From Sagittula stellata E-37 (GTDB taxonomy: Bacteria; Pseudomonadota; Alphaproteobacteria; Rhodobacterales; Rhodobacteraceae), in assembly GCF_039724765.1 (NCBI RefSeq), contig NZ_CP155730.1:248001-312000 (forward strand): DNA of 64,000 bases, read 5' to 3'. Shown one piece after another: positions 18,345 through 37,564 of the stretch. The notes beneath the pieces are model-generated. The model did no database searches, was not told the DNA's origin, and saw nothing but the letters and a program-made list of their open reading frames with translations. Position numbers and translations under genes: made by a program. The first letter of the stretch is position 1; each line of letters starts with the position of its first letter.

Positions 18345-18383
18345 CTGCCCGGCAGGGCATCCCACAGGGATGCCCCGAGAGGG
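18345..18383 (+). repeat. hairpin repeat family 1, copy C
   Basis: It begins CTGCCCGGCAG and ends CGAGAGGG. Between them is a perfect 9-bp stem, GGGCATCCC, loop ACA, GGGATGCCC. It interrupts orfB exactly between codons for PGCIVS and DNGTEF, in what would be the catalytic DNGTEF motif. Confidence 0.75.
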
Positions 18384-18571
18384 GCTGACAATGCAGCCGG
18401 GCTTGCCGTAGACTTGGATCAGGGTACTGAGCTCCCGGGCGACCCTTGCCCCGGAGAGGCTGGTGTCCGCCACGAGGCACAGGCATTCGCGCGTGCAGTC
18501 GTCGATCACGGCGAGGGTCCGTAACTTCCGCGAGGCACCGAAGCTGTCGGATACAAAGTCCAACGATCCCG

Positions 18572-18610
18572 CTGCCCGGCAGCCGTTTGCGCAGCATAAC
18601 CGCGAGAGGG
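18572..18610 (+). repeat. hairpin repeat family 1, copy F
   Basis: Starts CTGCCCGGCAG, ends CGAGAGGG, with loop GCA and a partly decayed stem (CCGTTTGC against GCATAACCG). It splits orfB between the MPSAVGVNA segment and the SLDFVSDSF segment. Confidence 0.65.
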
Positions 18611-18789
18611 GCGCGCGCGTTGACGCCCACGGCCGATGGCATCGGGGTTCTTGTGCCACGCGCTCGCTTGCGACCGCGCCGCCTTTTCACGGACAGCCCT
18701 TCCTCGCGGTAGATCCGGTAGAGCTTCTTGTGATTCATGATCATGCCCTTGCGCTCCAACAGGACGCCTATCCGGCGGTAGCCGAACCG

Positions 18790-18830
18790 TCGTCCATTGG
18801 GCTCGGACCAATGGCGCCTTCAATGGACGA
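18790..18830 (+). repeat. palindromic repeat family 2, copy G
   Basis: 41 bp bounded by perfect 10-bp inverted repeats, TCGTCCATTG and CAATGGACGA. Removing it joins AAGCGG to CGGTTCGGC on the minus strand and restores the OrfB reading KRRFGYRRIG, so it is a clean insertion. Confidence 0.75.
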
Positions 18831-18878
18831 CCGCTTGCCGACGATCTCCTGCATCTCCCTGCGGATCTCGACACAGTC

Positions 18879-18918
18879 CCCTCTCGGCAGAGTTGCTGCG
18901 TAAATCGCCTGCCGGGCA
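18879..18918 (-). repeat. hairpin repeat family 1, copy D
   Basis: Read on the minus strand it starts TTGCCCGGCAG and ends CGAGAGGG. The stem is partly decayed (GATTTAC, loop GCA, GCAACTC), with outer GGCA/TGCC pairing kept. It lies in orfB between DYDFSQR and EIRREMQEI, where about twenty family residues are also missing. Confidence 0.65.
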
Positions 18919-18988
18919 ATGGGACGTTGCGAGAAGTCATAATCCCGCATCACGCGGCGCGCCGCGTCTCGCCGCTTGATCAATGTCG

Positions 18989-19252
18989 TCAGTTCTTTCC
19001 CAGGAGGTCCTTCAACACGACGTTATCGAGCATGGTGTCTGCCAGCAGGCGTTTGAGCTTGGCATTCTCATCCTCAAGGGCCTTTAGCCTCGCAGCCTCG
19101 GACACCTCCATACCGCCATACCTGGCCTTCAGTTTGTAGAACGTCGCCGTGCTCAGGCCGTGCCTGCGGCACACCTCCGCAGTCGGCATTCCGGCCTCCT
19201 GTTCCTTGATCATCCCAATTATCTGCGCCTCGGTGAAACGGCTCTTTCGCAT
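18989..19252 (-). CDS. IS3-family transposase OrfA
   Basis: 87 residues, full length. The HTH reads MRKSRFTEAQIIGMIKEQEA, then RRHGLSTATFYKLKARYGGM; a leucine-zipper-like segment follows (LKALEDENAKLKRLLADTML). It is intact although its OrfB partner is dead, so it has no transposase to work with unless another copy supplies OrfB. Confidence 0.85.
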   Translation of the reverse strand: MRKSRFTEAQIIGMIKEQEAGMPTAEVCRRHGLSTATFYKLKARYGGMEVSEAARLKALEDENAKLKRLLADTMLDNVVLKDLLGKN

Positions 19253-19289
19253 GTGTCTGCTCCTTCAGAGTTGGCGCAGACTCTACATC

Positions 19290-19709
19290 GCGGTGAGGGA
19301 TTTCGCGGGGGGCAGGTCACGAGGCCCGAACGCTGCCGGTGCATCGTGGGCAGTACCGCCCGTGCCACGTTCATCGCGCCGAAGAGGTTGATCTCGAACT
19401 GTCGGCGCACGTCCACATCACGGATCGTCTCAAACTAACCAAGCTGCGCGCGACCGCATCGTTGACCAGCACGTCGATCCGGCCGAATGCCTCAATGGCG
19501 GCGTCATGCGCCGCTGAGGCCGCCTCGGGATCGGTGACGTCAAGTGGCAAAACGAGCAGCCTGTCATCCGTGGTGGAGAGATTGTCCGCAATTCCGTCGA
19601 CGGTCACGCTGGTCGCAACGACCCTGTCGCCCGCCTTGAGGACATCGCGAGCGAGCAGATGCCCGAGCCCTTTGCCTGCGCCGGCGATGAACTACACTTT
19701 GTCAGTCAT
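19290..19709 (-). pseudogene. short-chain dehydrogenase/reductase, broken and truncated
   Basis: From the ATG at 19709 it reads MTDKV, a TAG stop at codon 6 where a Trp is usual, then FIAGAGKGLGHLLAR (GxxxGxG cofactor site) and GIADNLSTTDDRLLVLPLDV, then GRIDVLVNDA. A frame change follows, and FEINLFGAMNVARAVLP continues until the IS3 element cuts it off. The YxxxK catalytic segment is lost. Premature stop, frameshift and IS truncation make it a clear pseudogene. Confidence 0.8.
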
Positions 19710-19786
19710 CGTCAGCTCCTTTTGCTGGCTGACCCATGATTAGTACATCTTTGCTAAGTTTGATTAGGGTCAGGACTCGTTCTCTC

Positions 19787-20176
19787 TCAAAGCCAGAAGA
19801 TCACGGTCGCAGCGAGTGCGATCGCTGAGAAGAAGGTCTTTGGGCATCGGTCATAACGGGTCGCCACCCGTCTCCAATCCTTGAGCCTGCCGAACATGAT
19901 CTCGATCCGGTTGCGACGCTTGTACCTGCGCTTGTCGTACGGGACGGGCGTCTTCCGTTTCGTCCGGCCCGGGATGCAAGGGCGTATCTTCTTGTCTTGC
20001 AAGGCTTCTCTGAACCAGTCGGCATCGTAGCCGCGATCTCCGAGCAGCCATTTCACGTCTGGCAGCCCGCCGACCAGCGCACGCGCCCCGATGTAGTCGC
20101 TGACGGGGCCGGCAGTCAGGAACAGGTCGATGGGCCGGCCATGGCTGTCGCAGACGGCGTGCAACTTCGTGTTCAT
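19787..20176 (-). CDS. IS5-family transposase, second reading frame
   Basis: 129 residues shown from an internal ATG, though it is probably made only as a frameshift product with the upstream frame. It carries the second Asp (WLLGDRGYDADWFREAL) and the Glu region RRNRIEIMFGRLKDWRRVAT. No internal stops, so the element may still be active. Confidence 0.85.
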   Translation of the reverse strand: MNTKLHAVCDSHGRPIDLFLTAGPVSDYIGARALVGGLPDVKWLLGDRGYDADWFREALQDKKIRPCIPGRTKRKTPVPYDKRRYKRRNRIEIMFGRLKDWRRVATRYDRCPKTFFSAIALAATVIFWL

Positions 20177-20196
20177 GCCTCCCTTCGTCCGGCCAA

Positions 20197-20550
20197 TCAG
20201 CCGTCCACGCCCCCCTTTTTCACGCCCAGGCTGGACGCCGTGCGATGGGCCTTCAGATGAGTTGCGTCGATCATCACGGTCGTCTCCTCACCATGCTCGC
20301 CCGCCAGCCCAGCCATGATCCGGGCGAAGACGCCTCTATCGCTCCACCGCTTCCAGCGGTTGTAGAGTGTCTTGTGCGGGCCGTATTCCCTTGGCGCATC
20401 TCGCCACCGCAATCCATTGCGATTGATAAAGATAATACCGCTCAGAACGCGCCGGTCATCAACCCGGGGCTTGCCGTGCGACTTGGGGAAGTAAGGCTCC
20501 AGACGCGCCATCTGCGCATCGCTCAACCAGTAGAGATCAGACATGTTCAC
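20197..20550 (-). CDS. IS5-family transposase, first reading frame
   Basis: 117 residues: the N-terminal DUF4096-type segment (LSDAQMARLEPYFPKSHGKP, RVLSGIIFINRNGLRWRDAP, YGPHKTLYNRWKRWSDRGVF) and the first catalytic Asp region TVMIDATHLKAHR. Near its end the minus strand has A5G6 (20220-20210). A -1 shift there joins it to the second frame through GRGRLIGRTKGGMNTKLHAV, as in IS427-group elements. Confidence 0.85.
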   Translation of the reverse strand: MNMSDLYWLSDAQMARLEPYFPKSHGKPRVDDRRVLSGIIFINRNGLRWRDAPREYGPHKTLYNRWKRWSDRGVFARIMAGLAGEHGEETTVMIDATHLKAHRTASSLGVKKGGVDG

Positions 20551-20571
20551 CGCTCGTTTTCGAACGGTGAA

Positions 20572-21771
20572 TCACGCTCGCTCAACCAAATCAATGGGTC
20601 CTGAACCTAGAACCTCGCTGCAGAACTGTTTCAGCGCTTCGGTATCGTCCGAGGGCGCGACCCAGACGCGGTCCAGCTCCAGTGTTCCGATTGGCACAAT
20701 TCGCTCCGCGATTTCGACCGGAGTGGTCTCGTCGGTACGACCACCGGCCCAATCATGAAAGGCCGTAGAATACCGAACGGCCGCTCCACTGGACGAAAGG
20801 TCGATCGTTCCTCCTTCCGCAAAGAATGTCAGCCCGTCCCCCATCTCTTCCCCGATAAGTACGAGCCGTTCCCCCAGACGGTGCTTCAAGATGGCGGTGA
20901 AGACGATGGCGGCGGAGAAGGTGAACTTGTCGATGAGCAAACCGACCCGCCGGCCCTTCGCGCCCTCGGATATCGCATCGATCAAAGGCATGGTCCGAAT
21001 AAAGTCGCCGCCCGTATTTCCTCGAACGTCAATAATCAGGGGAGTGTCCGGGCGCGACCTTACGAGTTCCGCCGCCTTGGAAACTGCAGATGGAAGTGCC
21101 GCTTCACCGGGGTCAAAGAAGCTTGGGAGGACCAGTAATAGCCCGGCTTGGCCGAAGTCCTTGAACTTCAGAAAACACTGAGGTGTCCAGGATGCGTCGG
21201 CTCTGCCATGCTCGCTGCGCGGGTAGACCGTGGAACCGGGAACCCCATTCTTGGGATCCAGAAGAATGTCTCTGATCTGGCCTGCTTCACTCTGCATCCG
21301 GTATTCGATTGCATCGTCGCCTGAAGAAACTCTCAGGTGCCGCAATGCACCTGGCCAAGCGAAAAGGATTGGCCCGATGACACGCTTTCGTTGGCGCGTT
21401 CCCGCCAGAAATTTCTCGGCGGCGACTTCAATGTCACCTGTGGGAACACCATTGATGGATATCAAATCGCCCCCGACCGCCTCAGAGAGGCCCGGTGCGG
21501 CGTCCAGCAGGCGTACAGTGGTGCCGATGGTTGCGAACCTGAGAGGAAGAACCGAGATGGCATCGTTTGGGATCAGACGCGTATGCCCGTTCCCCGGAAG
21601 GGCCAGAAGGCGCATCAAGGAGAGCAGAAACTCATCCTTCGAGTTGGCGAGTGCGCTCTGCCGGGCTTGGTTGACGTGTCGCTCCAACTCTTCGCGCCCG
21701 ATTGATCGGAAGCTGGGGTCGGTCGGCAGGACCGTTGTCACGATTTGCTCTAGGTCTTGGATCATCGACAT
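20572..21771 (-). CDS. S41-family peptidase-like protein, 3' end replaced by IS5
   Basis: 399 residues. A tail-specific-protease core is suggested by PLIIDVRGNTGGD, LIDKFTFSAAIVFTAIL (nucleophile Ser in the FSAA position), RLVLIGEEMGDGLTFF and LPGNGHTRL. No signal peptide or PDZ is obvious. The last ten residues (after EVL) come from the IS5 end, which supplies the stop at 20572. Without the insertion the frame would continue about twenty codons. The catalytic part is complete, so activity may survive. It stands alone, with no operon partners. Confidence 0.65.
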   Translation of the reverse strand: MSMIQDLEQIVTTVLPTDPSFRSIGREELERHVNQARQSALANSKDEFLLSLMRLLALPGNGHTRLIPNDAISVLPLRFATIGTTVRLLDAAPGLSEAVGGDLISINGVPTGDIEVAAEKFLAGTRQRKRVIGPILFAWPGALRHLRVSSGDDAIEYRMQSEAGQIRDILLDPKNGVPGSTVYPRSEHGRADASWTPQCFLKFKDFGQAGLLLVLPSFFDPGEAALPSAVSKAAELVRSRPDTPLIIDVRGNTGGDFIRTMPLIDAISEGAKGRRVGLLIDKFTFSAAIVFTAILKHRLGERLVLIGEEMGDGLTFFAEGGTIDLSSSGAAVRYSTAFHDWAGGRTDETTPVEIAERIVPIGTLELDRVWVAPSDDTEALKQFCSEVLGSGPIDLVERA

Positions 21772-22281
21772 GCGTCATTGTGTAGTCATGTGTGCTGCAA
21801 ACGCCAAGATGATCACGAAGTGATCATGCGGCGCTGCCGCAGGTCACGTGACTACCTGGCAGAGCACCATGACTCTACCGGCCCAGAGCCGACCTCCACG
21901 CTAGGCGCAGCGGATGACCAGTCGCAGCCCTGAAAGTCCGACCTTTGGGTGATGCTGCGCTTTTCACGAGGGGCCGTAAAGGGCTGATCGCGGCGGAGAT
22001 AGGGCAGTCGAAGACCACTCCGGGCACACGGGTCAAGAGCGACGACGTCGATAGCGCCCAAGGGAACGCAGTCGGCGTTTACTGGGCGTAGGTCCCGCAG
22101 CGCCCCGGGCGATCCCTGCGCGAGAGGGACACCGCCAACTGACCCGCCAGAGTCGCGCACTGCGCCCAGCTCGCCGGGGTTGACCGCTTCATGTCCCGCA
22201 CTCGGATCTTCGGACAGCCGCACCGGGTGATGCGAGGGGAGGTGGTTTCACCCGGATCGGAAACGCGCGCATTTCGCAAAA
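21772..22281. other. intergenic region, no gene recognised
   Basis: About 510 bases between the divergent S41 and phoX genes. Several short frames are open, but none resembles a known family. The phoX promoter lies at its right end. Confidence 0.35.
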
Positions 22282-22321
22282 CCTACAAGCGACGGTCACA
22301 AATCTTACAATCTGGTGACTC
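22282..22321 (+). promoter_or_regulatory. candidate Pho box array upstream of phoX
   Basis: Seven-base units recur every 11 bp: CCTACAA (22282), CGGTCAC (22293), CTTACAA (22304) and a weaker GTGACTC (22315), separated by four-base AT-rich or mixed spacers. This 7+4 layout is that of PhoB boxes (CTGTCAC-like half-sites). The array ends 68 bases before the phoX ATG, as expected for a phosphate-starvation gene. The half-sites match the consensus only in part. Confidence 0.5.
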
Positions 22322-22388
22322 TAAAACGACTGGACACCGCCGCCGAGACGACGGCGGCACACTCATCCCCAAAGCCAGAGAGCCAACC

Positions 22389-24269
22389 ATGGATATCAAG
22401 AAGACAATCGACCTTTCCTGGGACGACTTCGATGAACTGCGCGACCCGCGCCCTGCGGAAACCGACTTCGACCAAGTGGTCGAAACGGCCCTGTCCCGCC
22501 GCGGCTTCCTCAGCGGTGTCCTTGCTTTCGGTTCCGGTGCGGTGGCCTTCGGATCGGGCCTGATGGGCTCCACCAGCGTGGCGCGCGCCCAGTCGTCCGG
22601 TTTCGACTTCGAACCGATCGGCATCGCGACGGACTTCGACATTCACGTACCCGCCGGCTACCAGTGGAAGCCGCTGGTCAAATGGGGGCAGCCCCTGTTC
22701 TCAGAGGCTGAAGGCGCCTTTTCGCCCGAAACCGGCGTTTCCGTTGCGATGTCGGACAAGGTCTTTGGTGAGAACACCGACGGCATGGAGCTGTTCGAGG
22801 TCGATGGCGCTCAGGTCATCGCGGTCAACTCCGAGTACGTGAACCCGAAGATCAACCTGCCCGAAGCGTCCGAAGGCATGCCCGCCAACGTCGACGAAGT
22901 GACGCTGCTCAAGAACATGCAGGGCGTCACGGTGATGGAAATTGCCGATACCGGTAACGGCTACGAGGTTGTCGTCGACAGCCCTTTCAACCGCCGCATC
23001 ACCCATGAAACACAGATGACCATGGACGGCCCAGCCGCCGGTTCGGCCCTGGTGCAGACCAATGCGGACCCGGAAGGCATGTCGCCCAAGGGCACCATGA
23101 ACAACTGTGGGTCGGGCAAGACCCTCTGGGGCACCTACCTGACCTGCGAAGAGAACTTCAACGGCTACTTCGGCACCACCGGCGAAATGCCCGAGGGCGA
23201 GGGCTACAGCCGCTACGGTATCGGCGGCGAAGGTCGCTACGCCTATGAAAAGTACGATGCACGCTATGATCTGAGCCAGGAGCCGAACGAACCGCATCGC
23301 CACGGCTGGATCACCGAGATCGACCCTTCGGATGCCTCGAGCACCCCGGTCAAGCACACTGCCCTCGGCCGTTTCAAGCATGAGAACGCCGAGATGGTGC
23401 AGGCCGCGGATGGCCGCGTCGTGGTCTACATGGGCGACGACGAGCGTGGTGAGTTCATCTACAAATACGTCTCGAACGGCACCTGGGCCGAAGGCCAGCC
23501 CACCGATGGCCTTCTGTCGGACGGCACACTCTACGTCGCAAAGTTCAACCCCGACCAGACCGGCGAATGGCTTGCTCTGACCCCCGAGTCCACCAGTATG
23601 AGCCTTGAAGAAATCCTGGTCTTCTCGCGCATGGCAGGCTCGAAGGTCGGCGCGACGACGATGGACCGACCCGAGTGGATCGCCTGCAATCCGCTCAAGG
23701 CCGAGGCCTATTGCGCTCTGACCAACAACAAGAACCGCGGCCTCAAGACCAACGCCGGTGGCGACGAGACCCCGGTTGGCGGCCCTAATCCGCGCGAGGC
23801 CAACAACTACGGCCAAATCGTGCGCTGGACGCCGGAGAACGGCGATCATGGCACCATCGATTTCACCTGGGACCTCTACGTCATGGCGGGCAACCCGGAG
23901 GTTCATGCCGATGCCTATGCCGGCTCGGATAATGTCACGACGGGCAACATGTTCAACTCGCCCGACGGCATGGCCTTCGACACCAAGGGCAGGCTGTGGA
24001 TCCAGACCGATGGCGACGACAGCAACGAAGGCGACTTCGCTGGCATGGGCAACAACCAGATGTTGGTCGGCGATACCGAAACCGGTGAAATCGCTCGCTT
24101 CCTGACCGCGCCGAACGGCGCCGAAGTGACAGGCCTGTGCTGGTCGGCGGACCGCAAGGTGGCCTTTGTGGGTATCCAGCACCCGGGCGGCTCCTGGCCG
24201 GACGGCGAAGGCAAACCGCGTTCCTCGGTGATCTCGGTCTGGCGCGAAGACGGCGAAACTGTCGGCTAA
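22389..24269 (+). CDS. phoX: PhoX-family alkaline phosphatase (DUF839), Tat-exported
   Basis: 626 residues. A twin-arginine signal SRRGFLSGVLAFGSG with cleavage near ARAQ directs folded export to the periplasm. The body follows PhoX: KWGQPLFSEAEG, NNCGSGKTLWGTYLTCEENF, HGWITEIDP, ALGRFKHENAEM, VVYMGDDERGEFIYKYV, RPEWIACNP, NSPDGMAFDTKGRLWIQTDG and GIQHPGGSWP. PhoX is a Ca/Fe-dependent monoesterase used under phosphate limitation. The ATG at 22389 puts the Arg pair about 37 residues in, common for PhoX. Monocistronic, with Pho-box-like repeats upstream and a hairpin downstream. Confidence 0.92.
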   Translation: MDIKKTIDLSWDDFDELRDPRPAETDFDQVVETALSRRGFLSGVLAFGSGAVAFGSGLMGSTSVARAQSSGFDFEPIGIATDFDIHVPAGYQWKPLVKWGQPLFSEAEGAFSPETGVSVAMSDKVFGENTDGMELFEVDGAQVIAVNSEYVNPKINLPEASEGMPANVDEVTLLKNMQGVTVMEIADTGNGYEVVVDSPFNRRITHETQMTMDGPAAGSALVQTNADPEGMSPKGTMNNCGSGKTLWGTYLTCEENFNGYFGTTGEMPEGEGYSRYGIGGEGRYAYEKYDARYDLSQEPNEPHRHGWITEIDPSDASSTPVKHTALGRFKHENAEMVQAADGRVVVYMGDDERGEFIYKYVSNGTWAEGQPTDGLLSDGTLYVAKFNPDQTGEWLALTPESTSMSLEEILVFSRMAGSKVGATTMDRPEWIACNPLKAEAYCALTNNKNRGLKTNAGGDETPVGGPNPREANNYGQIVRWTPENGDHGTIDFTWDLYVMAGNPEVHADAYAGSDNVTTGNMFNSPDGMAFDTKGRLWIQTDGDDSNEGDFAGMGNNQMLVGDTETGEIARFLTAPNGAEVTGLCWSADRKVAFVGIQHPGGSWPDGEGKPRSSVISVWREDGETVG

Positions 24270-24285
24270 AAGCTTCGGCTCCCGT

Positions 24286-24314
24286 CCCGGCGCCGCGCCT
24301 CATGCGGCGCCGGG
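24286..24314 (+). terminator. hairpin after phoX
   Basis: A perfect 11-bp stem, CCCGGCGCCGC and GCGGCGCCGGG, with a 7-base loop starts 17 bases after the phoX stop. It lacks a T-run, so termination could be weak or protein-assisted. Confidence 0.55.
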
Positions 24315-24749
24315 CGACCCCGAGGCCGCTCCGTCTTCAAACAGCTGAAGCTGGAGAAGGACCTCTTCAAACAGAAAGATATCAAGATCGGCATCGTCGC
24401 GTCTTGAGCCAATCGTCGATGCCGATCTTTTCTTTCGAGTTCCGTGGCCCGGATCAGGATCCGAGCGGCGCGCGTCCGATGTCGCCAATCTGCCCGGATT
24501 GCAGCACGCTGAGGTGCAGAGACGCCGCTCCTGCGTTCCGCTTCCTGCGCTTTCTGGACCTTCATCTTCTGCATGGTACCGAGGCCAGCGGCCCGGAGCG
24601 GCCGTTGAGACCCAGCTGCAGCACGTTTGTGGTATGCTTGCGCGCCAGCACGAAGTTGACGATGTGGCTGGGCGCGGCAGATCGGAGGAACTGACATGCC
24701 TACTGCAAACCTACCCGCCATCCGCGCCTGCCGCCCTGCATGGAATAGG
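24315..24749. other. intergenic region, probably decayed sequence
   Basis: No recognisable gene. It leads into the recombinase remnant, and reading frames on both strands are short and without motifs. It may be the worn edge of an integrated element. Confidence 0.35.
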
Positions 24750-25330
24750 GGACGGATCGTCGGTCAAAAAAGTCCACTGCTGCCAAAACACGTCTAGGCG
24801 ATCAGGGTCAGGCTTGAACTTGCGGAGCCGCACCGTGACCTGGCACTGTTCAATCTCACGAGCGACAGCAAGCTGCGAGGTTGTTATCTTGTGAAACTGC
24901 GGGTCGTCGATGTCTTTGCCACGGGTCAGGTCAAGGAGCGGGCATCCGTGATCCAGAGCAAGACCAGTCGGCAGGTTCGGTTCGAGATCACCGAGGGCAC
25001 ACGGCGGTCATTGGCCCGCTGGATGGCCGAGCCGTTGTTGATCTGATCCGAGCATCTCTGGCCCGGACGCTTCAATGAACGCCTTCACATCTCGACGGGT
25101 CAGTATGCCGGGCTCGTGCGTGACTGGGTCACGTCCATCGCGCTGGAACTCTCGTCGTACGGCACGCATTCCATGCGGCGGACAAGGTTAGGGCAGATCT
25201 ATCGGAAGACAGGGAACCTGAGGGCCGTGCAGCTTCTTCTCGGGTACGACCCACGATGGACAGCACTGTCCGATATCTGGACGTGGACCTGGAAGACGCC
25301 CTCACGATCTCAGAGGGCGTCGAGATCTGA
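24750..25330 (+). pseudogene. tyrosine recombinase/integrase, broken
   Basis: Frame pieces line up with a phage-type integrase catalytic domain: GQKSPLLPKHV, a TAG stop, AIRVRLELAEPHRDLALFNL, DSKLRGCYLVKLRVVDVF (first catalytic Arg), VIQSKTSRQVRFEITEGTRR, a TGA stop with frame change, then YGTHSMRRTRLGQIYRKTGN (H-x-x-R) and LRAVQLLLGY. A further shift gives MDSTVRYLDVDLEDALTISE to the stop; its Tyr is the nucleophile position. Two stops and two shifts make it inactive. Confidence 0.8.
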
Positions 25331-25743: not shown

Positions 25744-25758
25744 CGTTATGATATAACG
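25744..25758. promoter_or_regulatory. Zur-type palindrome 1 (COG0523 operon)
   Basis: CGTTATGATATAACG is a perfect palindrome, CGTTAT-GAT-ATAACG, 40 bases before the first GTPase start. It shares GTTAT-N3-ATAAC with the sites at 31450 and (one mismatch) 35249, in line with Zur boxes of other Alphaproteobacteria. Confidence 0.75.
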
Positions 25759-25798
25759 TTACTTTATATGCTCTGTACCGGGTTTTGGAGTGCCGAGG

Positions 25799-26935: not shown

Positions 26936-26958
26936 CAAATAAACAAAAGGAGACAGCC

Positions 26959-28170
26959 ATGTCCGCCATCGATACCCGTCTACCCGTCACCGTCCTCAGC
27001 GGATTTCTCGGCGCCGGGAAGACCACGCTTCTGAACCGGGTGCTGAACAACCGTGAAGGCCGCCGCGTTGCGGTCATCGTAAATGACATGTCCGAGGTGA
27101 GCATCGACGCGGACCTCGTGCGCGAGGGCACTGAGCTGTCCCGCTCCGAGGAAAAGCTGGTGGAGATGTCCAACGGCTGCATCTGCTGCACCCTGCGGGA
27201 CGATCTGCTGAAGGAGGTGCGTCAACTCTCGGAAGAGGGGCGTTTCGACTACCTGCTGATCGAGAGCACCGGCATCTCCGAGCCGCTGCCCGTCGCCGCG
27301 ACCTTCGATTTCCGCGACGAGCAGGGCGAGAGCCTTTCGGACGTGGCGCGGCTGGACACGATGGTCACGGTGGTGGATGCGGTGAACCTGCTGAACGACT
27401 ATTCCAGCCATGATTTCTTGACCGACCGGGGCGAGAGCCTTGGCGATCAGGACGACCGCAGCCTTGTGAGCCTGCTGACCGAGCAGATCGAATTCGCTGA
27501 TGTGGTGATCCTAAACAAGGTGTCGGACGCCGGAATGGACAAGACCGACAAGGCGCGCAAAATTATCCGCGCGTTGAACGCCGATGCTAGGATCATCGAG
27601 ACGGATCACTCCGAGGTCGCCTCCGATGCGATCCTCGACACGGGGCTGTTCGACTTCGACACCGCGCATGAGCATCCGATGTGGGCCAAAGAGCTCTATG
27701 GTTTTGCCAACCACGTGCCCGAGGACGAAGAATATGGCATCACCTCCTTCGTCTACAACGCGCGCGCGCCCTTTCATCCAGAGCGCTTGCACGCGGCACT
27801 GAATGGCACGCTGCCCGGCACGATCCGCGCCAAGGGACATTTCTGGATCGCCTCGCAGCCCAATTGGGCGATGGAATTCTCGCTGGCGGGGGCCATGTCC
27901 TCGGTCAAGCCGCTGGGCTGGTGGTGGGCCTCCGTGCCTGAGGATCGCCTGCCCACGCACCCGGAGGCGCAGGCCGAGATCGCGCGTATGTGGGCGGAGC
28001 CTTGGGGCGACCGGCGGCAGGAGATCGTTTTCATCGGCGTCGGACTTGAGCGCGAGGTGATCTGTGCCAAGCTGAATGATGCGCTGATGGATGTGACCGA
28101 GTTCACGCCTGAGGAATGGGCAGATCTGCGCGACCCCTTCCCGCGCATGGACCGCCAGCGCGCGGCATGA
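26959..28170 (+). CDS. zigA: zinc metallochaperone GTPase, ZigA-like (COG0523)
   Basis: 403 residues. [33 protein letters not shown], the CxCC motif [12 protein letters not shown] (Cys74, 76, 77), [16 protein letters not shown] and ILNKVSDAG. The long C-terminal domain with [27 protein letters not shown] and LGWWWASVP is that of the ZigA/YeiR branch, distinct from its CobW-like neighbour. It is linked to zinc starvation in other bacteria. RBS AAAGGAG is seven bases from the ATG. The stop overlaps an in-frame ATG of the next gene. Confidence 0.85.
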
Positions 28171-29336: not shown

Positions 29337-29367
29337 GGCCGCGCGGCCCCTGACCGGGTCCGCCGCC

Positions 29368-30180: not shown

Positions 30181-30917
30181 TGCGCGTGCTCCTTCTGATC
30201 GTCTTTGTGGTCATGCGGATGGTCATGATGGTGTGAGTAGAGCGCCAGCGCCCCGCCAGTGCCTTCGCCGAACAGGGCGCGATATTCCGGAGCGGAGACC
30301 ACATGCTGCGGCGTGCCTTGGCAGCAGATGTGCCCGTTCAGGCAGATCACCCGGTCAGAGGCGCTCATGACCACATGCAGATCATGGCTGACCATCAACA
30401 CGCCGCAGCCATGCTCCTGCCGTACGCGCTCGATCTGCCGATAAAAGGCCGCGACACCCGGTTGATCAAGGCCCTGTGTCGCCTCGTCCAGAACCAGCAG
30501 ATCGGGTTCACCCAGCAGGGCCCGTGCCAGAAGGACGCGCTGCAACTGCCCGCCTGACAGCGCGCTGATCTGACGCTGCTCCAGCCCCGGAACGCCCGCC
30601 TCTTCAAGCGCTTGCGCCATCCGGGCGCGTCTCACGCGCCGTCGCAGGCTCAACAGGCGGTCGACAGTCATCGGCAAGGTCGGATCGAGCGCCAGCTTCT
30701 GCGGCACATAGCCGATCCGCAATCCCGCCTGACGCGTAATCCGCCCGCCGCTCGGCGCGATGGAGCCGATCAGAAGCCGCAGCAACGTCGATTTTCCGGA
30801 GCCGTTCGGCCCGACGATGGTGACGATCTCGCCTGCCGCCATGCCGAAGGACACGGATCTGAGGATCGCGCTGTCTCCGATGGTCAGCCCGACGCTGTCG
30901 AATGTGAAGATTGTCAT
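30177..30917 (-). CDS. znuC: zinc ABC importer ATPase ZnuC
   Basis: 246 residues. Walker A GPNGSGKST, Q-loop GYVPQKLALDP, signature LSGGQLQRVLLARALL, Walker B LLVLDEATQGLD, H-loop VSHDLHVV. The C-terminal tail is rich in His and Asp (HHHDHPHDHKDD), common in ZnuC. The start at 30917 overlaps the zur stop by four bases (ATGA). Supplies energy to ZnuB for zinc entry. Confidence 0.92.
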   Translation of the reverse strand: MTIFTFDSVGLTIGDSAILRSVSFGMAAGEIVTIVGPNGSGKSTLLRLLIGSIAPSGGRITRQAGLRIGYVPQKLALDPTLPMTVDRLLSLRRRVRRARMAQALEEAGVPGLEQRQISALSGGQLQRVLLARALLGEPDLLVLDEATQGLDQPGVAAFYRQIERVRQEHGCGVLMVSHDLHVVMSASDRVICLNGHICCQGTPQHVVSAPEYRALFGEGTGGALALYSHHHDHPHDHKDDQKEHAQ

Positions 30918-31414
30918 GTGCTTGGCGCAACCCCTGCGTCGTCGCAGCAATCGGGGCAGATCCCGACGGCCTCCAGTATCGTTTCCTCGACCACGAAGCC
31001 AGTCTCCCGCGCGAGCCTTTGCATCATATCGGTGGAGGCCGGAGAGGCCGTTTCCGTGACCTTGTCGCAGAGACGGCAGATCATGAAGGCCGGGGCGTGA
31101 TGCGCGTGGGGATGGGTGCAGGCCACATAGGCGTTCAGGTGTTCGATCTTGTGAACAAAGCCGAACTCTACGAGGAAATCCAACGCGCGATAGGCGACCG
31201 GTGGATGCGGCGCCTTGCCGTCGGCCTTCAGCTGGTCGAGGATCTTGTAGGCGGTCATCGCACAGCCCTGCGCCAACAGTATCTCCAGCACCCGACGACG
31301 GATCGGCGTCAGGCGCTTGCGCTTGCCTTCGAAGAAGAGTTCGGCGCGCTCAAGACAGGCAGAGACGGCCCGGTTCGAGGGATCGGGGGACTGTTGGTGC
31401 GGCTTCATCTGCAT
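30914..31414 (-). CDS. zur: zinc uptake regulator Zur (Fur family)
   Basis: 166 residues. Winged HTH with LTPIRRRVLEILLAQGCAMT and PVAYRALDFLVEFGFVHKIE, then the dimerisation/metal domain with CTHPHAHHAPAFMICRLCDK and ICPDCCDD, giving the two CxxC pairs of the structural zinc site. In the presence of zinc it would repress at the GTTAT-N3-ATAAC sites. An ATG two codons in (31408) is an alternative. It lies head to head with znuA across the palindrome at 31450. Confidence 0.92.
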   Translation of the reverse strand: MQMKPHQQSPDPSNRAVSACLERAELFFEGKRKRLTPIRRRVLEILLAQGCAMTAYKILDQLKADGKAPHPPVAYRALDFLVEFGFVHKIEHLNAYVACTHPHAHHAPAFMICRLCDKVTETASPASTDMMQRLARETGFVVEETILEAVGICPDCCDDAGVAPST

Positions 31415-31449
31415 GCGCCCGGGGTCATGTCTTCTTTTTCTTCTTGATA

Positions 31450-31464
31450 GGTTATAACATAACC
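31450..31464. promoter_or_regulatory. Zur-type palindrome 2 (zur-znuCB / znuA divergent region)
   Basis: GGTTATAACATAACC is a perfect palindrome, GGTTAT-AAC-ATAACC, in the 86-base space between zur and znuA. One site can control both directions. It matches the site at 25744 in the core GTTAT-N3-ATAAC. Confidence 0.85.
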
Positions 31465-31500
31465 ATTACATCCTTGGCCAATTAGATCAAGGAGTTCTAC

Positions 31501-32565
31501 ATGTCCCGTACCCTGCTTTTCGGAACCGTCTCGGCCATCGGCATCGCCACCTCCGCTGCGGCGGACGTCCCGAAGGTCGCCACCGATATCGCGCCTGTTC
31601 ATTCGCTTGTTGCAATGGTGATGGGCGATCTCGGCAGCCCGGATCTGCTGGTGCAGCCGGGCGCCTCGCCGCATGGCTATTCCATGCGTCCCTCGGAGGC
31701 GCAAGCTCTGGAGGCGGCCAATCTGGTCTTCTGGATCGGCGAAGGGCTGGAGCCTTGGCTGGAAGGTCCGTTGGAGGCGCTGGCCTCGGATGCGCAGGTC
31801 GTTGAGCTGATCGGAGTCGAAGGGGTGACCGAGCTGGAGGTGCGCGAAGGCGCAACATTTGAAAAGCACAGCCACGATGACGACGAGCACCACGATGACG
31901 AGGATCATGCGGAAGAGCACGGGCACGACGATCATGACGACCGCCGCGAGGAAACGCACGCCGAGGCGCATGAGGATCACGATGACCACGATCACGACGA
32001 CCACGCGCATGAAGAGGCGCATGAAGAAGACCACCATCACAATGGTGGCCACGACCCGCACGCATGGCTTGATCCGGAGAATGCGCGCGTCTGGCTGGGT
32101 GTGATTGCCGCTGAGCTCTCCGAACTGGACCCGGAAAATGCCGAAACCTACAGTGCGAATGCCGCGGCAGGTCAGCAGCTGATCGACGCGTCGATCAATG
32201 ATGTGATGGCCAGCCTCCAACCAGTCCGGGGCAAGGCCTTCGTGGTCTTCCACGATGCCTACCAGTATTTTGAGAACCGGTTCGATTTCCCGGCCGCGGG
32301 CTCGATCCGCGTGGGCGACAGCTCCGACCCCAGCCCGGCCCGCATTCAGGAAATCCATGACAAGGTTCAGGAACTGGGCATCACCTGCGCCTTCTCCGAG
32401 CCGCAGTTCAACGCCAGCATGATTGACACCGTGTTCCGGGGCAGTGAGGCGACCGTCGGTGTTCTTGATCCGCTGGGCGCCGATCTGGAACCGGGCGCCG
32501 ACCTCTATCCACAACTGATCCGCAACCTTGGTTCAAATCTTGCCGAGTGCCTGGGCGCATCCTGA
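31501..32565 (+). CDS. znuA: periplasmic zinc-binding protein ZnuA
   Basis: 354 residues with a Sec signal peptide (cleaved near AAA-DVP). Zinc ligands are in the expected places: His in GASPHGYSMRP, a long His/Asp/Glu-rich loop (about residues 120-185, HSHDDDEHHDDEDH and similar), DPHAWLDPENARVW, VFHDAYQYFENRF and the C-terminal DPLGADLEPGADLYPQLI. It captures zinc for ZnuBC. AAGGAG at 31489-31494 is seven bases from the ATG. Confidence 0.93.
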   Translation: MSRTLLFGTVSAIGIATSAAADVPKVATDIAPVHSLVAMVMGDLGSPDLLVQPGASPHGYSMRPSEAQALEAANLVFWIGEGLEPWLEGPLEALASDAQVVELIGVEGVTELEVREGATFEKHSHDDDEHHDDEDHAEEHGHDDHDDRREETHAEAHEDHDDHDHDDHAHEEAHEEDHHHNGGHDPHAWLDPENARVWLGVIAAELSELDPENAETYSANAAAGQQLIDASINDVMASLQPVRGKAFVVFHDAYQYFENRFDFPAAGSIRVGDSSDPSPARIQEIHDKVQELGITCAFSEPQFNASMIDTVFRGSEATVGVLDPLGADLEPGADLYPQLIRNLGSNLAECLGAS

Positions 32566-32577
32566 GCGTGACTTGAC

Positions 32578-32597
32578 GGGGGCGCGAGAGCGCCCCC
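32578..32597 (+). terminator. hairpin between znuA and the DUF1007 gene
   Basis: GGGGGCGC, loop GAGA, GCGCCCCC: a perfect 8-bp stem with a GNRA loop, 12 bases after the znuA stop and 11 before the next start. With no T-run it may be a partial terminator that lowers expression of DUF1007-NicO relative to znuA. Confidence 0.5.
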
Positions 32598-32608
32598 ATC
32601 TGGCGCCC

Positions 32609-33262
32609 ATGCGCATCCTCATCTCCCTCCTCGCCGTCGTGATCCTCGTGACCAGTTTCCCCTCCAGACCACAGGCCCATCCGCATGTTTTCGTGGATGT
32701 GACCGGCAGCTTCGTCTTGAATGACAGCGGCCAGCTGGAGGCGGTGCGCATCCACTGGCTTTACGATGCCTTCACGACGCTCATGGCCATGCAGAACCTC
32801 GGGCTTGATCCCGACAGGGACGGCAAGCTCGACGAGTCCGATCTGCGCCGCGTCATCGAGGGTGAGACTGACTGGGCACCGGACTACGAAGGTGATACCT
32901 ACCTCCTCATCGACGGCGAAAAGGTCCGTTTGTCGCGTCCGCAGAAGGCCTGGGCGGAGGCGCCCGGCGACCAGATCGGCGTTGGCTTCACTCTCTCTTT
33001 GAGCAAGCCCATCGACATGAACGGACGCACTGCGACGCTCGAACTATACGATCCGATCTACTATTACGCCTACACCGTGACGGACAAAAGCGCGGTCGAG
33101 GGACCGGTGGGTACCTGTCGTTTCGAGATCATCCACTTCGATCCCGATGAAGAAATTGCCAAGCTGCAAGACCAGCTGCGGGCACTGTCACGAGAAGAAA
33201 TCCCGGAGAACCCCAATGTGGGCGGGCTGTTTGCCGAAAAACTCGAACTGACATGTCCCTGA
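32609..33262 (+). CDS. DUF1007 family periplasmic protein
   Basis: 217 residues. Signal peptide MRILISLLAVVILVTSF with cleavage near AHA, then HPHVFVDVTGSFVLND, which gives an N-terminal His-Pro-His after processing, a possible metal ligand. LRRVIEGETDWAPDYEGDTY, LYDPIYYYAYTVTD and KLQDQLRALSREEIP are DUF1007 features. The family is nearly always paired with a NicO-type transporter, as here (10-base overlap). A metal-donor role is inferred. Confidence 0.8.
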   Translation: MRILISLLAVVILVTSFPSRPQAHPHVFVDVTGSFVLNDSGQLEAVRIHWLYDAFTTLMAMQNLGLDPDRDGKLDESDLRRVIEGETDWAPDYEGDTYLLIDGEKVRLSRPQKAWAEAPGDQIGVGFTLSLSKPIDMNGRTATLELYDPIYYYAYTVTDKSAVEGPVGTCRFEIIHFDPDEEIAKLQDQLRALSREEIPENPNVGGLFAEKLELTCP

Positions 33263-34158
33263 CACGCATCGCCTTGATCTTGCTCACTGTTGTCGCGGCG
33301 GTTGTCCTTCTGGTGACTCTGGTGGATACCACGCGGCTGACGTGGTGGGCGGCACAGGCACAGCGGGAGATCCAGAACACCATGGCCACCGGCGTTCGCG
33401 CCGTGCAACGCGGCGATGCGGGCGCTTTGCCGTCCTTGTGCGGCCTGACGTTTACCTATGGTGTGGTCCATGCTCTCGGTCCCGGGCACGGCAAGGTGCT
33501 CTTGGGCGGAACGGCGCTGGCCAGTCGCGCGCAGATGCGTCGACTGACGGTGCTGACCCTACTGTCCAGCCTCGGGCAGTCGCTCACCGCGATCCTGCTT
33601 GTCCTGATTGGCATCGGCCTGATCCGCGTGACCAGCGAGCAATTGGTTGGCCTGACCGAGGAGGCGCTGGCCCCGCTCAGCTATCTGTTCATCGGGTCGA
33701 TTGGTCTGTGGCTTGCCTTCCGTGGCGCGTGTGCGCTGTGGCGGCAGCGCGGGGTTCAGGCGCAGCATAAGCATGGCCACGAGCACATCCATGCCGCCTG
33801 CGGCTGTGGCCATGCGCATGGCCCTGAGCTTTCCGACATCCGCGAGGAGATGAGCCTGCGCGAGATGAGCGCCCTCGTGATCAGCATCGCCATGCGACCT
33901 TGCTCCGGTGCGCTCTTCCTTCTGGTGATCTGCTGGCATTTCGACATCCTGCCCGCAGGGATCATCGCGACCTTTTCCATGGGCCTTGGAACGGCAACCT
34001 TCAACCTTGGTGTTGCAGGTGCCGGGCTTGGCCTCGGGCGGCTGGCGATGCGCCTCGACCCCAATGGCAAGCTGAGCCTCGCCGCACCCGTGATGCAGGT
34101 GTTTGCCGGCCTGCTGATCGTGACGGCGGTTGCGGCACTGCTGCGGCCCTTCGTTTAG
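33253..34158 (+). CDS. NicO/RcnA-like transition-metal transporter
   Basis: 301 residues with about six membrane spans. FTYGVVHALGPGHGKVLLGG carries the HxxxxGHG motif of NicO transporters; a cytoplasmic His-rich loop follows (HKHGHEHIHAACGCGHAHG), then MRPCSGALFLLVICW. NicO members carry Ni or Co, but the position behind znuA and DUF1007 makes zinc or cobalt handling under Zur control plausible. It overlaps the DUF1007 gene and converges with the AraC-type gene. Confidence 0.78.
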   Translation: MSLTRIALILLTVVAAVVLLVTLVDTTRLTWWAAQAQREIQNTMATGVRAVQRGDAGALPSLCGLTFTYGVVHALGPGHGKVLLGGTALASRAQMRRLTVLTLLSSLGQSLTAILLVLIGIGLIRVTSEQLVGLTEEALAPLSYLFIGSIGLWLAFRGACALWRQRGVQAQHKHGHEHIHAACGCGHAHGPELSDIREEMSLREMSALVISIAMRPCSGALFLLVICWHFDILPAGIIATFSMGLGTATFNLGVAGAGLGLGRLAMRLDPNGKLSLAAPVMQVFAGLLIVTAVAALLRPFV

Positions 34159-35171
34159 GCCTGTTCCGATCCCGCTGTCGCAAAGCGTGCGCGGTAGTCG
34201 CGCGGCGAGAGCGAGAAGCGGCGGCGGAAGGCCTTGCGCATCTGCTCATCCGACTGGAACCCGGCGCGGAAGGCCACGGTCTTCAGGGGCAAATCCGTAT
34301 CGAGCAGAAGCGTCTTGGCGCGGTCACAGCGCAGCCGCTCCAGCGTGGCCATCGGCGAGGCCCCGAATTCAGCAGTGAACCCGCGCGTCAGGCTGCGCAC
34401 GCTTATTCCGGCGGCGCGGGCGATGTCTTCCAGCGTCAGAGCCTGATCCAGCCGTGCGTTCATCCACGTCAGCACATCGCCCATGCCCGACGCACCGGCG
34501 GACTGGCCGGTAAGCAGTGTACTGAACTGCGACTGACCACCCGGACGCTTGAGATACATGACCATGTCGCGCGCCACGGCCAGCGCGATATCCCGGCCGT
34601 AGTCTTGTTCGACAAAGGCCAGGGCCAGATCAATCGCCGCCGTCACCCCCGCCGAGGTCCAGAAACTGCCCGCCTGCGCAAAGATCGCATCCGCATCGAC
34701 CATCACATCCGGAAAGCGCTGACGCATCCGCGCGGCGTAGTTCCAATGGGTCGCAGCGCGCTGGCCATCCATAACACCCGCCTCCGCCAGAAAAAACGAT
34801 CCGGTGCAGAGCGCGGCACAACGCGTTGTTTTGCGCCCGAATTGGCGACACCAGCGCACCACCTCCGGCTCCGCGTCGAGCACCTCTTCGATGCGTGGCG
34901 CGCCTGCGATCATCACCGTGTCGCAGGCCCCGAGATCGCGCAGGGCGACCTTCGCCTCCAGCGAGACAACAGTGTCCGAAGGGATCATCCCGGTGCGCGG
35001 CGCGGCGATGCTCACATCGTAACCGCCCCCGAAGCCCTGCGCCGCGAGGTGTTGCGACGCATAACCCAGCACGCTGAGCGGGCCGGTGGCTTCCAGCGTT
35101 TTGAAACCGGGATAGACGATCAGTGCGACGCTGCGACGGCGCTCAGAGCGGCTGCTGCTCGTATGAGACAT
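34155..35171 (-). CDS. GlxA-type AraC-family transcriptional regulator
   Basis: 338 residues. An N-terminal DJ-1/PfpI-like domain ([52 protein letters not shown]) is followed by a two-HTH AraC domain ([40 protein letters not shown]). The ATG at 35171 starts directly before the domain; an in-frame ATG at 35237 would extend it into the region next to the Zur-type site. Divergent from the dehydrogenase gene, which it may control; the GlxA branch often senses small nitrogenous compounds. Confidence 0.85.
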
Positions 35172-35248
35172 CAACAAAATCAGGTTCCTTGGCCGGAAAG
35201 ACAGGTCGTTTGGCCCGATCTGCCGGGTGACCGCCATCGCGGTTTGTC

Positions 35249-35263
35249 TGTTATATTATTACA
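35249..35263. promoter_or_regulatory. Zur-type palindrome 3 (dehydrogenase promoter)
   Basis: TGTTATATTATTACA is a palindrome with one mismatch, TGTTAT-ATT-ATTACA, and fits the GTTAT-N3-ATAAC core of the two zinc-locus sites at nine of ten positions. It lies 32 bases before the dehydrogenase ATG and upstream of the divergent AraC-type gene. Confidence 0.6.
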
Positions 35264-35295
35264 ACCATGGTCTGGGAGATGACAAGGAGAGACCC

Positions 35296-36459
35296 ATGAA
35301 AACCCGTGCCGCCGTTGCCTGGGAGGCAAACCGTCCGCTGGAGATCGAAGAGATCGATCTGGACGGTCCCAAAGAGGGCGAAGTCCTTATTCGCATCGTC
35401 ACGACAAGCCTGTGCCATACCGATATGTTCACCCTGTCCGGTGCCGATCCCGAGGGGCTGTTTCCGGCTGTGCTCGGCCACGAGGCTGTCGGGATCGTCG
35501 AAGAGTTAGGTCGCGGCGTGACCTCGCTCAAGCCCGGCGATCACGTGATCCCGCTTTACACCCCCGAAGACCCGAACTGCCCCTACATCAAGTCCGGCAA
35601 GACCAACCTGTGCCAGACCATCCGCAAGACCCAAGGTCAGGGCCTCATGCCCGACGGCACCTCGCGGTTCAGCTACAAGGGAAAGATGATCCATCACTAT
35701 ATGGGCACCTCGACCTTCAGCGAGTACACTGTTCTGCCCGAGATTGCCGTGGCGAAGATCTCCAAGGAGGCACCGCTGGCCAAGGCATCGGTCATGGGCT
35801 GCGCCGTGCCGACAGGCATCGGCGCCGTGCGCAATACCGCCAAGGTGGAACCGGGCGCGACGGTCGCGGTCTTCGGCCTCGGCGCGGTGGGCATGGCGGT
35901 GATCCAGGGGGCAAAGATGCAAGGCGCGTCGCGCATCATCGGCATCGACACGAACCCCAACAAATTCGCGCTGGCGCGGTCGCTCGGGGCACATGACTGC
36001 ATCGACCCCAAGGATTTCACCCAACCCATTCAGGATGTTATAGTCGAGATGACGGACGGTGGCGTCGATTATTCCTTTGAGTGCATCGGCAACGTCAACG
36101 TCATGCGTTCGGCGCTGGAATGCTGCCACAAGGGGTGGGGCGAATGCACCGTGATCGGCGTGGCCGGCGCGGGCGAAGAGATCGCCACGCGGCCGTTCCA
36201 GTTGGTTACAGGCCGTGTCTGGCGCGGGTCGGCCTTTGGCGGCGTGTTGGGGCGCAGCCAGCTGCCCGGCATGGTGGATGAATGGCTCCGGGGGAACTTC
36301 GACGTCGATCCCTACATCACCCACAACATGACGCATGAGCAGATCAACACGGCGTTCGATCTTCTCCATGCGGGCAAGTCGATCCGCTCGGTCATCCATT
36401 TCCAGCCGTCCGAGACGATGCTGGTCAATGACTTGCCCGGGGTGATCGTACCTGCCTAA
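35296..36459 (+). CDS. class III alcohol dehydrogenase (S-(hydroxymethyl)glutathione dehydrogenase-like) with reduced structural-zinc site
   Basis: 387 residues collinear with class III alcohol dehydrogenases, which oxidise S-hydroxymethylglutathione with NAD. Catalytic zinc ligands are kept: Cys40 (TTSLCHTD), His62 (VLGHEA) and Cys169 (VMGCAVPTG). NAD fold at [18 protein letters not shown]. The structural-zinc lobe reads [19 protein letters not shown] (residues 88-106): the positions of four canonical cysteines hold Asp92, Cys95, Ile98 and Cys106, so two ligands are missing. AAGGAGA at 35284-35290 fixes the start. A Zur-type site is upstream, suggesting a version used when zinc is scarce. 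Confidence 0.82.
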
Positions 36460-36478
36460 GTTGCCACCCCGACCAACA

Positions 36479-36509
36479 GGCCCGTCATTCTCGGAGGGCG
36501 GGCCATTTT
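36479..36509 (+). terminator. terminator between convergent dehydrogenase and XRE genes
   Basis: GGCCCG (36479-36484) and CGGGCC (36499-36504) form a stem followed by ATTTTG on the plus strand, 19 bases after the dehydrogenase stop. It can serve the dehydrogenase and perhaps the convergent gene. Confidence 0.5.
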
Positions 36510-36510
36510 G

Positions 36511-36777
36511 TCAGCAGCAGCTACAGGATTTGCCGTGGGTAAAGTCGAAATCTGAGTCGGTCAGCGGCGCGTCACCTGAAAAGGCCCCCGGCTCTACGCG
36601 AAGGGCATCGGACAGCTGCGTCAACATCTTTGCGCTCGGCGCGTCCTTCATCGGCAAGGCCCCTTCAAGGCGCGCGATCTGTCGTTCCGAGAGGCCGGAG
36701 AGCTTCGCCAGCTTCGGACGCCCCAAGCCGCGCAGCTTGCGGAGTTCGATCAATCGGTCGGGAGAAATCGCGGTCAT
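36511..36777 (-). CDS. small XRE-family HTH protein with C-terminal Cys cluster
   Basis: 88 residues. The HTH is LIELRKLRGLGRPKLAKLSG, then LSERQIARLEGALPM, a cro/CI-type fold. The tail SDFDFTHGKSCSCC ends in three cysteines and could bind a metal. The ATG at 36777 has AGGGGAC eight bases upstream; an earlier in-frame ATG at 36822 lies in IS3 DNA and is not the native start. It lies beside the zinc locus; a metal-linked regulatory role is only a suggestion. Confidence 0.7.
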   Translation of the reverse strand: MTAISPDRLIELRKLRGLGRPKLAKLSGLSERQIARLEGALPMKDAPSAKMLTQLSDALRVEPGAFSGDAPLTDSDFDFTHGKSCSCC

Positions 36778-37122
36778 TGGAGTAGTCCCCTGAAGGTGGT
36801 CCACCAACTGGGATAGATTCATCCCGCTAATTGGAGGATCAGCGATGGCTGGAAAACGAGATAAGCCCGAGGAGACTATATCGAAGCTTCGGCAAGTTGA
36901 AGTTCTGCAAGGACAAGGCGCAACGATTTCCGAGGCGGCGCGTCAAATCGGTGTGACACAGCAGACGTTTTACCGCTGGCGGAAGCTCTATGGCGGGATG
37001 CAGCGGTCTCAGCTTGCGCGCCTGAAAGAGCTGGAGAAGGAGAACCAGCGGCTGCGGCGGGCGGTGTCTGATTTGACGCTGGACAAATTGATCCTGACCG
37101 AGGCGGCAAAGGGAAACTTCAT

Positions 37123-37150
37123 TCGTCCATTGGCCTCGGACCAATGGCGG
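37123..37150 (+). repeat. palindromic repeat family 2, copy G2 (partial)
   Basis: 26 of 28 bases match the left part of the 41-bp repeat at 18790 (same strand): TCGTCCATTG, then CTCGGACCAATGGCG. It contains the inner hairpin CCATTGG/CCAATGG. The right end of the unit is not recognisable. It lies at the orfA-orfB border of the second IS3. Confidence 0.6.
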
Positions 37151-37395
37151 ACAACCGCCTCATCCTTCGCGTCGCCGGAAATGCATCGACCATGTGCGAC
37201 GAGAACTTGGCGTATCGGAGCGCCGGGCCTGCCGCACGTTCGGGCAGCATCGGTCCACGCAGCGCAAGGTATCCCGCGCCGGAGGACGAGGAGCGCCTGA
37301 CCGACAATATCATCGAGCTGGCCGATCAATACGGGCGCAATGGCTACCGCATGGTCACCGGCCTGCTGAACAACGCTGGCTGGCAGGTGATACCG

Positions 37396-37436
37396 CTGCC
37401 TGGCAGGCGATTTGCGCTGCAAATCTGCCGAGAGGG
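37396..37436 (+). repeat. hairpin repeat family 1, copy A
   Basis: Starts CTGCCTGGCAG, ends CGAGAGGG. Stem GATTTGC, loop GCT, GCAAATC is perfect, with outer GGCA/TGCC pairing. It lies at a deletion junction in orfB, between the codons for NAGWQV and DELLNG. It is followed directly by CAATGGACGA, identical to the terminal repeat of family 2. Confidence 0.75.
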
Positions 37437-37525
37437 CAATGGACGAGCTCTTGAATGGTGAAATCCTCTACAGCTTGCGCGAAGCCCATCTCCTGATCGA
37501 GCTATAGCGCATACACTACAACACT

Positions 37526-37564
37526 CCCTCTCGGGACATCACTGCGTGATGCCCTGCCGGGCAG
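37526..37564 (-). repeat. hairpin repeat family 1, copy B
   Basis: On the minus strand it starts CTGCCCGGCAG and ends CGAGAGGG, with stem GGGCATCAC, loop GCA, GTGATGTCC (eight pairs plus one G-T). It is a clean insertion in orfB between the codons for HYNT and RPHSALGY, normally separated by one residue. Confidence 0.75.

Follow-up and report, generated by a model that had tools for sequence, protein, structure and literature searches.

GTAG-type repetitive extragenic palindromes (GTAG-REPs) and REPINs (REP doublets forming hairpins), which go with REP-associated tyrosine transposases (RAYTs), are palindromes of 20-40 bp present in many copies, some of them bulged, and are thought to be moved as folded single strands, according to the sections of the literature drawn on here (PMC3733652; PMC8266576). 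The same sections describe CGTC-REPs (Di Nocera et al. 2013, PMC3733652) as mostly alphaproteobacterial and as lacking a dedicated transposase, and place Rickettsia palindromic elements (RPEs) within proteins of the host, where some are expressed (PMC3733652). Here we report on a hairpin family found in a stretch of 64,000 nucleotides (64 kb; hereafter the window) of Sagittula stellata E-37 (NZ_CP155730.1, positions 248,001 to 312,000). Its units, mostly 41 bp long, sit inside insertion sequences (IS) and probably constitute a family of very small non-autonomous mobile elements with a hairpin that is REP-like in concept. No description of this family was found in the consulted sections of the literature searched, PMC12306157 and PMC8266576 among it.

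REPs with RAYTs and CGTC-REPs are the nearest systems in concept, but the tags, tails and locations that define them were not found here. The unit shares with GTAG-REPs and REPINs, as portrayed in those sections, that it is a small multicopy palindrome with a stem bulge in some. It differs in its 5' foot, which in 60 aligned copies is CTGCCCGGCAG or close variants and not GTAG, in its location (55 of 56 units in the genome labelled G162 are in or beside IS genes) where GTAG-REPs are predominantly intergenic, and in that PF01797 had no match in G162, a recently active genome. The tag of CGTC-REPs, CGTC or often TGTC in the account cited above, resembles the word abutting our unit; here, however, this word is target sequence, present in empty sites, and not part of the repeat. 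By the same account CGTC-REPs end in CCA and are mainly intergenic, whereas the unit ends in GAGAGGG, has no AT at its stem base and is nested in IS. RPEs are likewise small palindromes inside genes, but the 41 bp unit shifts the frame and sits almost only in genes of mobile elements. Miniature inverted-repeat transposable elements (MITEs) are, like the unit, non-autonomous and spread without coding capacity; the ends of the unit are, in contrast, not terminal inverted repeats, and a target duplication was not found. The unit codes for nothing recognisable.

Results

The family unit has constant ends, C[A/G]-CTGCCCGGCA and GAGAGGG, around a freely varying hairpin, and the consensus of 60 distinct 41-base copies (alignment A3) reads C[A/G]-CTGCCCGGCAG-stem-CGAGAGGG. 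Its ends, CRCTGCC and GAGAGGG, bear no inverted-repeat relation to each other. The stem consists of eight pairs, the first G-C or T-A and the second G-C or C-G, with a bulged T on the 3' side in 59 of 65 distinct sequences. The loop is mostly GNA (GCA, GAA, GTA or GGA in 40/65 distinct sequences); GNA triloops are unusually stable in single-stranded DNA. Among the exact-ended copies of 16 high-copy genomes the stem is free in both sequence and length, perfect palindromes occur alongside bulged ones, and the shortest unit among the matches listed measures 34 bp.

The original prediction held that changes on both sides of the stem keep it paired, and a strong excess of double changes bears this out. 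In the 60-copy alignment 96.7% of cells are paired, and both partners vary in seven of the eight pairs; double changes number 88, compared with 19.3 after shuffling and 0-32 with slid partners. These copies had been preselected partly for pairing: alignment A3 took 60 of the 65 distinct 39-class sequences, and the five left out include poorly paired ones. An unfiltered recount of all 77 distinct exact-ended copies with a 20-base stem among the collected loci agreed: pairing held in 581 of 616 cells (94.3%, as against 68.8% after shuffling), and double changes numbered 120, where shuffles gave a mean of 27.3 and a maximum of 41; the covariation is therefore independent of copy selection. Between exact ends, 133 of 136 distinct stems fold with at least 5 bp, compared with 308 of 680 letter shuffles. 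For the locus collection, a folding-energy filter reduced the 171 pattern matches to 163, a filter on pairing and energy left 127 of these, and the 5' dinucleotide then left 124; counts on the 124 concern copies selected for pairing.

At 86 of these 124 sites the locus aligns, with the unit left out, with an uninterrupted homologue among the collected loci. Unit lengths at these sites are 38-45, and the 86 empty sites comprise 56 without any net length difference, 25 with a difference of one base and 5 with one of 2-3 bases. The hairpins are thus not native IS sequence, a possibility that the empty sites rule out, and the comparison with uninterrupted relatives, proposed earlier as a way to define ends and duplications, gave 56 exact fits and no target duplication over the 86 of 124 sites compared. 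In G162, which has the most exact-ended copies among the 16 high-copy genomes, eight copies of an IS5-type element of about 925 bp are 98.4-99.8% identical and every one carries one unit. A second unit is present in four of them, and the other four have an empty site, the length difference being 40 bp. Such near-identical copies, with and without the second unit, imply a recent gain or loss in G162. Precise filled and empty sites, by which mobile elements in general are recognised, are thus found for this family both across the collection and within one genome, and the units are demonstrably mobile.

The insertion sites share the consensus C-R-T-C^G, with C at -1 in 89/122, T at -2 in 85/122, a purine at -3 in 103/122 and G at +1 in 86/120. 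Of the 122 distinct junctions 48 have RTC^G, a word found at 1.2% of the positions in their flanks, and the words abutting the units are CATC in 23, CGTC in 14 and TGTC in 13 of 122. Since the C-R-T-C word is already present in empty homologous sites, it belongs to the target and not to the unit.

Two further observations concern the sites. Units recur at conserved transposase motifs (VDGTG, ADGAYDT, SDNGTEF, EPGS^PWENGY and DAYGGYN) with an apparent lean toward catalytic Asp codons; on the opposite strand the target word reads C^GAY. Locus L020 (G000 C1:3433424) has the left flank of the L023 site and the right flank of the L006 site, in the same IS type, which suggests a deletion in which two units recombined.

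A covariance search of Rhodobacterales for further copies with paired substitutions found many. The host genome itself gave 42 matches at E<=0.1, of which 34 at E<=1e-5. The exact pattern matched it 12 times, against 0 for the reversed control, and with up to 3 mismatches allowed a clean gap separated copies with 0-1 mismatch from noise at 3. Reversed controls gave 0 matches in each of the 16 high-copy genomes as well, which excludes chance. In the order-wide scan, where 22 candidates were scored per genome and copy numbers stop at 22, matches at E<=0.01 were present in 151 of 292 genomes and 70 of 112 genera. A class-wide sample gave matches at E<=1e-5 in 8 of 289 genomes, four in the host family and four in other families; of the seven units fetched from the latter four, three are inside a transposase match or no more than 11 bp away from one. 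Among the matches listed in a scan of public genomes, with 80 of 120 stretches named, copies judged real came nearly all from Rhodobacterales, and one from Labrenzia. Phage records gave one match, partial and weak. Viral contigs gave six stretches, four of which (L152-L155) were judged real units by stem and 5' dinucleotide, and at least L153 is inside an IS3 gene. The bacteria that carry the family are marine relatives of Roseobacter.

Nearly all units lie in IS, which belong to about a dozen unrelated families. By tblastn, with flanking-frame pieces as references and 150 of 156 matches used (the weakest left out), a transposase match was found no farther than 150 bp from 115 of 150 units. 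A Pfam scan of flanking frames, which covered 113 of 127 reading-frame pieces, returned transposases of many families, which we take to be IS3, IS5, IS21, IS66, IS91, IS110, IS256, IS630-like, IS1182-like, IS6, IS481-like and IS200. Of the 56 units in G162, tblastn places 36 no more than 150 bp from a transposase match; another 14 either border a frame in which Pfam finds a transposase domain or have a flank identical to that of such a site, three lie in the leader of an IS110-family element and two were placed by eye in IS6 and IS3 frames; the last, beside a sulfotransferase-like frame, has no host assignment. For units whose junction is spanned by a single match, the orientation is antisense in 52 and sense in 24. 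In plasmid records 54/60 and 57/60 of the best matches listed fall under no listed gene, which fits broken transposases and is weak because the gene table omits pseudogenes.

Units also accumulate: 31 of 101 clusters hold 2-5 of them within 1 kb. Among the regions fetched, an IS of about 1250 bp in G285 has seven full-length copies, 98.8-100% identical, with four units each; the copy read has four different stems and further frame breaks. An IS3-type element of about 1280 bp in G075 has five full-length copies among the regions fetched, 99.4-100% identical, with five units each; leaving the units out of the copy read gives one open frame through the five sites, and the C-terminal end of orfB is lost. 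A multiplied 1272 bp IS with units in G000 carries stops. These unit-bearing IS are defective yet multiplied, presumably in trans.

Five copies of an IS110-family element (L278, L282, L285 and L294 in G162, and L053) also have a unit subtype at one and the same place in the leader, and a CACTGCCCGGCA-led hairpin lies farther upstream in three of these five leaders.

In the window we located the following features.

18343..18383, + strand: hairpin unit, 41 bp (5' TA), stem GGGCATCCC/GGGATGCCC, loop ACA; cmsearch 55.6 bits
18570..18610, + strand: hairpin unit, 41 bp (5' CG), stem partly decayed with three broken pairs; cmsearch 41.0 bits
18879..18921, - strand: hairpin unit, 43 bp class, TTGCC variant, stem slightly decayed with one broken pair; cmsearch 46.6 bits
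37394..37436, + strand: hairpin unit, 43 bp class, CTGCCTGGCAG, stem GCGATTTGC/GCAAATC(T)GC; cmsearch 46.3 bits
37526..37566, - strand: hairpin unit, 41 bp (5' CA), stem with bulged T, loop GCA; cmsearch 67.3 bits, copy in the model
17983..19264, - strand: host 1, IS3-family copy, from reading frames and the tblastn locus assignment to IS3
36838..37640, + strand: host 2, IS3-family copy (approximate ends), from reading frames and the tblastn assignment to IS3

All five units were recovered by the covariance search (E 1.4e-8 to 4.1e-15), as the original prediction of a five-copy hairpin family had it; the score of the 37526 copy, one of the 60 model-building sequences, is not independent, whereas the other four stand outside the model. 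The positions given earlier for the copies stood, and the lengths of 39-41 bp did not: the units extend 2 nt farther on the 5' side (CA or CG; TA in the first) and measure 41-43 bp. Two copies were then called partly decayed, and those at 18570 and 18879 do have broken pairs; reading frames together with tblastn assign both hosts to IS3, the family named at the time. In host 1, whose ends are those of the reading frames and not of the IS, orfA is open (18989-19264) and orfB is split by three units. The unit at 18343..18383 is antisense to the transposase and splits S^D of the IS3 motif SDNGTEF, the junction reading TLIQVYGKPGCIVS on one side and DNGTEFTS on the other. In host 2 orfA is readable, and orfB is decayed and split by two units. 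A weak sixth match in the window, at 27809 (E 0.026), is probably due to chance, and Rfam families gave 0 matches above the gathering score in the window.

A second small palindromic family, about CGTTCGCCATTG..CTCGGACCAATGGCG...CAATGGCTC, occurs in the same broken IS copies (18794 and 37127 of the window, both on the + strand) and also in L162, L166, L210, L285, L062 and others. A search of 334 records with a loose pattern of it yielded 32 distinct matches, including a few doubtful ones.

Discussion

The proposal of a tiny mobile palindrome, comparable in concept to RPEs or REPs, gains support from the empty sites and from the further covarying copies. We favour single-strand transposition because no duplication was found, the target word lies 5' of the cut and the folded structure is bulged; judged from these sequence features, this mode of movement would appear to fit best. 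A putative enzyme acting in trans would recognise the constant ends and the folded single strand of the unit, of which the conserved bulged T and the GNA loop may be the recognised features. It would cut 3' of the short target word and seal without repair synthesis, like single-strand transposases. IS DNA may be favoured as DNA that is exposed during transposition or, alternatively, as the only host that is both harmless to hit and able to spread its cargo. Interrupted, defective IS would still multiply, presumably with the help in trans of relatives that are intact, and the units would travel with them.

The confinement to IS is a real puzzle. It is quite possible, though we would not wager on it, that there is no targeting at all and that units insert anywhere, with only those inside IS surviving, multiplying and being transferred, so that IS serve as haven and vehicle. 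Interrupting an IS should cost the host little, and units do multiply together with their IS, as in the 1272 bp IS of G000 and the IS of G285 and G075. Neutral intergenic DNA, however, normally exceeds IS DNA in a genome, and survivorship alone would leave copies there, whereas in G162 all units except one are in or beside IS genes, five of them on weaker evidence. Moreover, an IS with four to five units of different stems must have been struck repeatedly despite its small size, or else IS copies have recombined; such repeated hits are an argument for targeting. A more far-reaching form of the favoured reading would make the unit a hyperparasite of transposons, a 41 bp hairpin directed to IS DNA of any family that hits one IS repeatedly, has silenced transposases across the order and depends on a kind of enzyme not yet linked to any repeat. 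We regard this form as rather doubtful.

Movement by a RAYT or an IS200/IS605-type Y1 transposase, as for a REP-type repeat, seems unlikely. The size, the bulged hairpin, the lack of duplication and the short target word all resemble REP and IS200/IS605 biology (in part PMC8266576). Y1_Tnp, found in 30 of 292 genomes, is also commoner in those with at least 8 copies (10/38 vs 20/254, p 0.002), but IS-rich genomes may carry more of everything. The unit lacks the GTAG tag, and PF01797 (Y1_Tnp, RAYT/IS200-type) had no match at E<=0.001 in G000, G158, G162 or G285, genomes that are active or high in copy number. The suggestion of a RAYT-type transposase tracking with copy number thus found no support in the host genome or in recently active G162. 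Y1 genes are themselves hit: in G075 the shortened Y1 (IS200-type) matches at L264 and L265, the two copies looked at, end at the adjoining unit and look like victims of its insertion. Half-sites without a right end exceeded the reversed control in 16 genomes (by-eye comparison, among the matches listed), and those followed up were the ones next to Y1 genes; a longer autonomous copy of the unit may exist.

An IS110- or IS91-type element as both the origin and the mover of the unit is in our view quite unlikely. IS91 inserts without duplication. Y2_Tnp (IS91) was found in 43 of 292 genomes, G162 included, with a strong link to high copy number (10 of 16 genomes with at least 14 copies vs 33 of 276 others, p 7e-6), and the subtype fixed at one IS110-family leader position in five copies points the same way. 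This leader copy, however, may be just another old insertion, Y2_Tnp had no match in G158, G004, G145, G154, G159 and G216, and a by-eye comparison with multicopy IS91 elements of G162, G075, G202 and G261 showed ends that do not resemble the unit. IS91 was set aside on account of these ends, and we read the excess of both Y1 and Y2 in high-copy genomes as general IS load.

Two other kinds of enzyme were searched for. A reverse transcriptase was rejected for the lack of association (RVT_1 in 94/292 genomes, 48/151 with units vs 46/141 without) and for the absence of a match in five genomes (G162, G285, G181, G158 and G000). Argonaute (Piwi) was seen in 1/292 genomes, below the cut-off, and had no match in G162.

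A removable insert at the RNA level, such as a mini-intron or a ribosome-bypass element that keeps the transposase functional, would suit the recent multiplication of unit-bearing IS and the G075 frame that is open across five insertion sites once the units are left out, but is highly improbable given that units occur in both orientations (24 sense, 52 antisense), that lengths of 38-45 shift the frame differently and that the transposases are otherwise broken, with orfB of G075 lacking its C-terminal end and further breaks in the G285 and G000 copies.

Several points weigh against the reading we prefer. Folding z-scores are modest for DNA, -1.4 to -1.7, and indistinguishable from these for RNA, -1.5 to -1.9, single-strand mobility being deduced solely from the shape of the unit. 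No enzyme was found to track with the family among Y1_Tnp, RVT_1, Piwi and Y2_Tnp. For 35 of 150 units tblastn gave no transposase assignment within 150 bp, although several of these look like transposase to the eye. Units at the same site occur in homologous IS of different genera, and the 122 junctions are not 122 independent insertions. Filled and empty copies could also reflect precise loss instead of gain, and much could be due to the dispersal of IS together with recombination among their copies.

If our reading of a hairpin family of mobile elements is true, a very small and recently active mobile DNA lives almost only inside other mobile elements. Two questions could then be tested in marine bacteria: which agent mobilises small palindromes in the absence of a RAYT, a question that also concerns the alphaproteobacterial CGTC-REPs, and whether a genome can concentrate insertions on transposons of unrelated families. 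The units may, furthermore, explain many of the broken transposase genes in genomes of the Roseobacter group.

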